NCBI RefSeq assembly: GCF_000787395.1
Contig: NZ_JRAA01000001.1
Location: 868,001-932,000 of the forward strand
Reading direction: 5' to 3'
Length of the DNA stretch: 64,000 bases
Origin: Solemya velum gill symbiont
GTDB taxonomy: Bacteria > Pseudomonadota > Gammaproteobacteria > Chromatiales > Chromatiaceae
Below are positions 33,420-33,963 of the stretch, one piece after another (the first letter of the stretch is position 1; each line of letters opens with the position of its first letter). The notes beneath the pieces are model-generated. The model saw only the letters and a list, made by a program, of their open reading frames with translations, did no database searches and had not been told where the DNA came from. The position numbers and the translations under genes are program-made.

Positions 33420-33448
33420 AGGATAATGACTGGATTGTTCATTATCCT
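33420..33448. promoter_or_regulatory. Inverted repeat upstream of the Crp/Fnr gene
   Basis: AGGATAATGA and TCATTATCCT form a perfect 10-bp inverted repeat with a 9-nt spacer, 36-64 nt before the regulator start. A second, CATTGAT (33456-33462) with ATCAATG (33472-33478), lies just upstream. Either could be an operator or an mRNA hairpin. Confidence 0.45.
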
Positions 33449-33496
33449 ATCAAATCATTGATAAGTACTTGATCAATGTCAGAATAACAGAACCTA

Positions 33497-33517: not shown

Positions 33518-33566
33518 GCTGTATCAAGTGTGATGTAAAAACCCGAAACCGGGATTCTATGAATTA

Positions 33567-33818
33567 TCAGATCTCGAAACCTTCAGGCCAAGCCATACCG
33601 TCTGCAACAGTGACGCTTTCCTCTTGGGCCACATTAGATGTCGTGCTGAAGCCATATGGCCAATCCATACCGTCAGACACTTCAGTTTCAGTACTCTCTA
33701 CTGCTGAATTTGCAGTGAAGCCATTGGGCCAATCCATACCGTCAGCCAATTCTGAAGCATGTAGTTGTGAAGCACTAACCAGTGCCACTAAAGCCAGTGA
33801 TGTAACCAATGTTTTCAT
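33567..33818 (-). CDS. Secreted 83-residue peptide with three DGMxWPxGF repeats
   Basis: The start is set at MKTLVTSLALVALVSASQ (33818); the longer frame to 33890 adds a hydrophilic leader that would hide the signal peptide. After a likely cleavage at LHA/S (residue 21) the mature ~62 residues contain three copies of one motif: DGMDWPNGF (26-34), DGMDWPYGF (49-57) and DGMAWPEGF (73-81), spaced 23 and 24 residues. The spacers are Ser/Thr/Val/Glu-rich and differ from each other. There are no cysteines. I recognise no family. It could be a structural repeat protein, a precursor of short released peptides, or a binding protein. No modifying enzyme or dedicated transporter is adjacent. Confidence 0.8.
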   Translation of the reverse strand: MKTLVTSLALVALVSASQLHASELADGMDWPNGFTANSAVESTETEVSDGMDWPYGFSTTSNVAQEESVTVADGMAWPEGFEI

Positions 33819-33849
33819 GATCTTTATCTCATTAATTTCGGATGCCTGC

Positions 33850-33881
33850 AGTATAGTGAGCAGCAAATAAAAGTCATGTGA
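33850..33881 (-). promoter_or_regulatory. Predicted sigma-70 promoter of the repeat-peptide gene
   Basis: On the minus strand the -10 TATACT (33855-33850) is preceded, at a 16-bp spacing, by ATGACT (33877-33872) as a -35. This puts the transcript start near 33843 and leaves a leader of about 25 nt. The -35 is weak, as expected for an activated promoter. Confidence 0.5.
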
Positions 33882-33920
33882 CTTAGTCACTTAGAAAAGA
33901 AGTTATGTGATATGGTCACA
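33877..33920. promoter_or_regulatory. Pair of Crp/Fnr-like palindromes
   Basis: TGTGA-CTTAG-TCACT (33877-33891) and TGTGA-TATGG-TCACA (33906-33920) are two inverted repeats with a 5-bp centre, 29 bp apart. The first is centred at about -41 from the predicted start of the peptide transcript, the classical position for a Crp/Fnr activator contacting polymerase. The centre is one base shorter than the E. coli CRP site (N6). They lie in the divergent gap shared with the VF530 gene. Confidence 0.55.
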
Positions 33921-33963
33921 CCTGTCAGCCTTCAGCCATTACATACATTGAGCGGGTAGCAAT

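Follow-up and report, generated by a model that had tools for sequence, protein, structure and literature searches.

In the sulfur-oxidising gill symbiont of Solemya velum two palindromes with an odd-sized centre precede a gene for a secreted repeat peptide, within a window (the whole stretch of DNA that was analysed) of 64 kb. Comparison with related sequences makes it quite probable that both are operators of the Crp/Fnr-family regulator encoded downstream of this gene, with class II activation of the peptide promoter and a sulfur switch as the best explanation. Crp/Fnr operators are taught as even-centred, and a whole, little-studied branch of the family, with members in many sulfur-associated bacteria, appears to use an odd centre. 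For the many regulators annotated just as 'Crp/Fnr family' this would supply an operator motif and a likely regulon tied to sulfur genes. A further gain, in the setting of an animal symbiosis, is a candidate for a sulfur-responsive promoter, namely that of a secreted peptide specific to the symbionts.

The peptide promoter and its surroundings

The features considered are these:
33906-33920: upstream N5 palindrome TGTGATATGGTCACA, centre 33913, at about -70 of the peptide transcript, read from the sequence
33878-33890: promoter-proximal N5 palindrome GTGACTTAGTCAC, centre 33884, at about -41 of the peptide transcript, read from the sequence
33850-33855, minus strand: -10 hexamer of the peptide promoter (TATACT), which the proximal 13-mer precedes by 22 bp
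33567-33818, minus strand: secreted repeat-peptide gene, 83 aa, with a signal peptide recognized by eye and then three copies of DGMxWPxGF
33536-33554, minus strand: terminator-like hairpin CCCG-GTTT-CGGG followed by T5, 3' of the peptide gene, by sequence
33456-33478: inverted repeat ahead of the regulator gene, CATTGAT-N9-ATCAATG, which the S. elarraichensis symbiont conserves (locus L030)
33421-33447: inverted repeat ahead of the regulator gene, GGATAATGA-N9-TCATTATCC, conserved in part in L030
32722-33384, minus strand: Crp/Fnr-family regulator gene, 220 aa, with recognition helix TAREIVSR and conserved Cys47 and Cys81

The sequence-only reading had placed two TGTGA-N5-TCAC palindromes in the divergent gap of 145 bp between the start codons of the peptide and VF530 genes (33819-33963), and direct inspection of the sequence agrees. 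The pattern has 4 strand-wise matches in the 64-kb window against 0.68 expected, a number reached in 1 of 100 shuffles, and 3 of the 4 are these two sites. Moreover, they are the only places within the window where GTGAYNNNRTCAC occurs free of mismatches. Followed along the peptide strand, the promoter runs TGTGACCATATCACA, 15 bases, GTGACTAAGTCAC, 22 bases, TATACT, the two palindrome centres being 29 bp apart. The putative transcript start at 33843/4 was taken about 7 nt beyond TATACT, and with this predicted start the sequence has the geometry of a class II activator promoter, namely a centre near -41 and a fixed distance to the -10. The -35 is poor (ATGACT, 16-bp spacing), and as judged from the letters the layout is of the activator-dependent type. 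The spacer between GTGA and TCAC is N5 and not the N6 of the even-centred CRP/FNR operators.

The regulator gene lies just downstream of the peptide gene as had been described, starting 182 bp beyond it. The hairpin that follows the peptide gene suggests that the peptide is transcribed alone; it has a short stem (fewer than 5 pairs), is absent from a consensus terminator scan and has a stronger counterpart in a genome of another family (G120, below). The two further inverted repeats reported ahead of the regulator gene do exist at 33421-33447 and 33456-33478. They cannot be counted as further N5 operators, as neither has the form GTGAC-N3-GTCAC and both their sequence and their spacing differ. 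Maybe they represent a second layer of control. No indication of autoregulation through N5 sites was seen in the window. The peptide also gave CBM_2 and WGxxGxxG matches, which were weak, under the cut-off and probably due to chance.

Conservation of the promoter in related genomes

Clear orthologues of the peptide were found in 2 of 141 other genomes, namely the symbiont of S. elarraichensis (G001, same genus; E 8.9e-33) and G120, a genome of the same class and another family (locus L020; E 1.9e-13). Five more matches at E 0.01-0.06 were treated as chance. Searching with the DNA pattern of the repeat gave 2 of 369 class genomes, the symbiont's own (G000) and G120, which we presume may be the S. 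pervernicosa symbiont. The assembly of the latter symbiont was built from Nanopore plus Illumina reads, and the hosts S. velum and S. elarraichensis split about 129 million years ago, both according to an extract of PMC7473567. The nearest named relative is the S. elarraichensis gill symbiont, with 94% identity in the best regulator segment.

A comparison of the palindromes in relatives had been proposed beforehand, and both N5 sites as well as the -10 TATACT turned out to be conserved in all three peptide promoters (S. velum, L030 and L020). The alignment of these promoters retains TGTGACCAT-TCACA, CTAAGTGACT-AGTCAC, ACTTTT and CTATACT. The centre-to-centre spacing is 29 bp in the window, 29 bp in L030 and 30 bp in G120, and the distance from the proximal 13-mer to the -10 is 22, 22 and 21 bp, respectively. 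The divergent VF530 gene had also been taken as part of the regulated unit. This is not supported: in L030 a HIT-domain gene separates VF530 from the peptide, and the peptide promoter of G120 has no VF530 gene next to it. Since VF530 is not kept in the relatives and the sites are, the palindromes belong to the peptide.

The reading frame of the regulator is broken in the assemblies of both relatives that share the promoter. In L030 the break is at about 1759; in L020 the frames of both regulator and peptide are broken (at about 780-860 and 1480-1510). These broken regulator frames could be sequencing errors, or the gene could have decayed once control of the promoter had passed to something else.

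The regulator and its branch

The regulator belongs to the Crp/Fnr superfamily (PF00027, 44.2 bits, cut-off 27.5; PF13545, 47.9 bits, cut-off 27). It is neither CRP proper (NF008732, 42.3 bits against a cut-off of 266, with the loop of the cAMP pocket replaced in alignments) nor FNR proper (NF008365, 20.4 bits against 228, with no cysteine before Cys47). In an alignment of 14 relatives Cys81 (window numbering) is invariant and Cys47 nearly so, and the helix is TAREVVSR or a close variant. Regarding a thiol-based sulfur sensor, what is observed in the sequence is this conservation of Cys47 and Cys81. Distant relatives (about 30-43% identity) carry the same N5 palindrome directly 3' of some of the regulator genes.

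Three sets of relatives were compared. For the class set, 369 genomes were searched with the regulator alignment and 109 matched at E 1e-40; the loci used were the 30 given by the search plus another 80 stretches, with some 25 places of lowest score left out. For the phylum set, 64 of 398 genomes matched at E 1e-60, and 29 loci besides the window were used, of 65 places listed. The plasmid set consisted of 8 of 25 plasmid records. This is a non-random sample of bacteria, with the family f207 dominating the phylum set, and the pooled 165 distinct regulators represent the subfamily of the downstream gene plus a few strays (e.g. the FNR-like L002 and L003).

For the pooled 165 regulators, the 150 bp that follow the stop codon contain GTGA-N5-TCAC 57 times, against a combined 3 for the spacers N2-N4 and N6-N9. 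In flanks of 300 bp (71 kb), 118 distinct class regulators with the Cys motif have 39 GTGA-N5-TCAC, the other spacers from N0 to N12 totalling 16, of which 7 are N6. Beside ten class regulators without the Cys pattern there were 4 N5 against 2 other spacers. The 29 phylum loci gave 15 N5 against 2 others, both N9, and the 8 named plasmid loci 5 N5 against 0 others within 300 bp. No N5 site was found in the flanks of 30 FNR genes (18.4 kb, approximate flanks, 3 loci being clipped at contig ends). Farther out, at 400-1500 bp (327 kb), N5 is still the commonest spacer, with 25 against 1-10 for each of the others. The unusual centre pointed out by the sequence-only reading is thus, by these flank counts, a recurrent feature of the downstream regulator's branch. 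Its proposal of an activator site of Crp/Fnr type, centred about -41 in the peptide promoter, likewise gains from the recurrence of sites of the same kind beside this branch, and it is likely that a Crp/Fnr branch marked by two conserved cysteines uses the N5 palindrome as its operator.

An exact GTGAYNNNRTCAC lies no more than 300 bp after the stop codon in 58 of the 165 regulators, and 107 have no exact neighbouring N5 site. All 58 N5 loci keep Arg184, Glu185 and Arg189, which are CRP-like recognition residues, as well as Cys81; Cys47 is kept in 50. Sorted by helix, exact downstream sites in the class set accompany 28 of 68 regulators with [TSA]ARE, 4 of 13 with [TS]SRE, 6 of 24 unclassified and none of 23 with TTRE. 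When one mismatch was allowed, the class-set loci with a site rose only from 40 to 62 of 128. Among the closest kin of the window (L027-L029) L028 alone has an N5 site beside the regulator, and in L027 an N5 site lies inside a neighbouring coding gene. The site of L028 (4115-4127) is placed 25 bp after the stop codon of this close relative's regulator, with TACACT 21 bp further on, and is followed by a small putative membrane ORF without a Pfam match.

At 22 of the 58 sites the regulator's own TGA stop codon falls inside the GTGA half-site (offset -4; e.g. L006, L007, L065, L228 and L241). The end of the coding sequence is there fused with the putative operator of the next gene. Another arrangement was seen in L102 (G168:C1:944128-951187), in which N5 palindromes lie between three tandem regulator paralogues, following one stop codon and preceding the next gene, as if the paralogues controlled one another. 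The N6 sites of the class set are found upstream of TTRE, TSRE or CTRE relatives in 6 of 7 cases and downstream of a TSRE relative in the remaining one, which may mean that the even centre is used by a sister group. Relatives with other helices and an even-centred GTGA-N6-TCAC, mostly upstream of the regulator, are L013, L058, L094, L105, L123, L130 and L136. A switch of centre length inside one regulator family is possible.

The N5-operator branch was defined by a helix [TS]ARE[VI][VI]SR, Cys81 and an N5 site 20-23 bp before a -10. The window shows TAREIVSR, Cys81 and an offset of 22, with its N5 site preceding the peptide gene, whereas in most branch members the site follows the regulator. 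In a FastTree tree of 162 regulators the N5 loci are clustered (32 changes against 49 when shuffled) and yet do not form one clade; the window was labelled N5 by hand, its sites exceeding the 350-bp limit applied to the others. The row of the window was flagged among the long branches, and the limits of the N5 branch are therefore loose. A 4-row alignment yielded an AlphaFold model of the regulator (pLDDT 62) that was too poor for use.

Promoter geometry elsewhere

The distance to the -10 also recurs. A TANNNT follows the 13-mer after exactly 22 bp at 19 of 38 class sites and at 12 of 20 phylum and plasmid sites. At 20-23 bp it is present at 22 of 38 and 15 of 20, respectively, while shuffles gave means of 2.3 and 1.75 with a maximum of 8 each. 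Counted on the opposite side of the class sites, TANNNT reaches at most 3 at any one offset.

The full form (site, 22 bp, TANNNT) without mismatch is found once each in G000 and G001, at the peptide promoter; G120 has no such match owing to its spacing of 21. When one mismatch was tolerated, full-form matches numbered 16, 9 and 16 in G000, G001 and G120, against 9, 6 and 9 for the control, and on these counts weaker sites are indistinguishable from chance. In the 2.7 Mb of G000, TGTGAYNNNRTCAC has 7 strand-wise matches and the reversed control pattern 6. A genome-wide N5 regulon in G000 was considered and rejected, 3 of these 7 matches being the peptide promoter. The remaining four comprise three beneath open frames of at least 93 aa and one (L046) outside such a frame.

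Likely target genes elsewhere and the link to sulfur

The usual target elsewhere would be a YgaP-like (DUF2892) membrane protein. In 49 of the 58 N5 loci, against 28 of the 107 others, a YgaP-like (PF11127) ORF follows on the same strand at a distance of up to 900 bp; three of these ORFs were checked against Pfam. The order of regulator and then DUF2892/YgaP-like gene is present in Azospirillum oryzae, Ruegeria sp. TM1040, Thiothrix subterranea, Paracoccus marcusii, Pseudosulfitobacter pseudonitzschiae and Chelativorans, and several of these loci add YeeE/YedE thiosulfate transporters, an MBL-fold hydrolase or a sulfur transferase. Thioclava has MBL-fold and sulfur transferase genes and no annotated DUF2892. 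The exact site stands ahead of a DUF2892 or MBL-fold gene in 7 of 8 named stretches, that of Thiothrix having one mismatch. The site of Azospirillum lipoferum remains 100 bp ahead of DUF2892, even though two unrelated genes separate this gene from the regulator. A DUF2892 transcript of Azospira suillum is among the most abundant and about 10-fold up during sulfide oxidation, and the mutant shows a mild effect only, as given in an extract of PMC5358917.

The window has no DUF2892 gene beside the regulator. Moreover, no N5 site lies near the DUF2892 genes of G000 (two, on C3 and C5), G001 and G120, and those of G000 were accordingly rejected as targets. The sulfur link in this organism therefore rests on kinship, and as far as the sequences indicate, the usual DUF2892 target is either lost in the Solemya genomes or never was one.

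Proposed mechanism and alternative explanations

As the palindromes match the landing site that recurs beside the regulator's branch, the peptide is probably switched on by the adjacent regulator. A dimer would bind GTGAC-N3-GTCAC with its half-sites 1 bp closer than in CRP/FNR sites. Dimers would be placed at -41 and -70, the proximal one activating through a class II contact with RNA polymerase and the second one raising activation. The inducer would most likely be sulfide or sulfane sulfur read by Cys47 and Cys81, as inferred from the sulfur target genes elsewhere and the life style of the organism. In Solemya symbionts this sulfur switch would drive a symbiont-specific secreted repeat peptide. 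The centre spacing of 29-30 bp, a non-integer number of helical turns, counts against this explanation, as do the broken regulator frames of L030 and G120 and the many regulators of the branch that have no exact N5 site next to them.

It can tentatively be proposed, as a possibility on which we place somewhat less than even trust, that a widespread Crp/Fnr cysteine sulfur sensor, with an N5 operator often over its own stop codon and normally a YgaP-like target, has been re-dedicated to the Solemya peptide. This peptide would be restricted to Solemya symbionts and one genome of another family, which is perhaps a Solemya symbiont too. If the sensor reading is true, host sulfide would trigger an exported signal or protectant.

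The same palindromes could be repressor operators, the dimer blocking the -35 region until a signal releases it. The centre at -41 does overlie the -35 hexamer, and the known sulfide sensors BigR, SqrR and SoxR are repressors in the extracts of the literature consulted. However, the fixed 22-bp distance to the -10 and the poor -35 (ATGACT) are what class II activation needs and a repressor needs no fixed distance, so repression is unlikely. That another Crp/Fnr protein of the cell binds the sites, the adjacent regulator being incidental or decaying, would account for their persistence in L030 and G120 despite the broken regulator frame, and G000 does have two further homologues. Both of these match the FNR model (one above and one below the cut-off), their helices AVETVSR and RHESVCR are without the conserved TAREVVSR form, and N5 sites track the window regulator's own branch and are missing from the 30 FNR-gene flanks, which renders this quite improbable.

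The location in a divergent gap would also allow the palindromes to serve the VF530 gene, or both genes. This is very improbable given that L030 and G120 have a different gene across the gap and nevertheless retain the sites and their distances to the peptide. Finally, short motifs do arise by chance, as the 7 matches of TGTGAYNNNRTCAC against 6 of its control illustrate, but chance palindromes are contradicted by the conservation of both sites in three of three genomes together with the N5 enrichment, and are hardly credible here.

Comparison with known systems

With CRP and its class II promoters the system shares the TGTGA half-site, the Arg-Glu...Arg recognition residues and a centre near -41. 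It differs in having a spacer of 5 where CRP has 6, and in the score of the regulator, some 42 bits against the CRP-model cut-off of 266. Moreover, by alignment the regulator has Cys81 and its neighbours where CRP has what we take to be the cAMP-phosphate loop. The FNR/ANR-type proteins have in common with the regulator the superfamily, the Ser before the last Arg of the recognition helix and activation from near -41. FNR sites are TTGAT-N4-ATCAA, in contrast with GTGAC-N3-GTCAC here, and the regulator is without the N-terminal cysteine cluster.

BigR, SqrR, SoxR and YgaV are sulfide or sulfane-sulfur sensors in which sensing is cysteine-based. In the extracts consulted they likewise control sulfur transferase, dioxygenase and similar sulfur genes; they are however ArsR-family repressors of unrelated fold, whereas the regulator of the window is a Crp/Fnr protein placed as an activator. 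HcpR of Desulfovibrio and clostridia resembles it in its CRP-like signals and the kept Arg180, its sites also coming from comparative genomics, and differs in its targets hcp and frdX and in a second published consensus, TTGACC-NN-GGTCAA, which is even-centred (PMC545781, extract). No description of the N5 operator or of the regulator branch was found in the literature searched, in which 'CRP/FNR' slash spellings were probably missed; the CRP/FNR motif survey of Matsui 2013, which lies outside that literature, may already contain the motif. The best sequence match of the regulator in the PDB is the Crp/Fnr structure 3dv8 (E 2.9e-15), with cysteines at both positions as in the window. This is possibly an orphan structure that the N5 regulator branch might explain.
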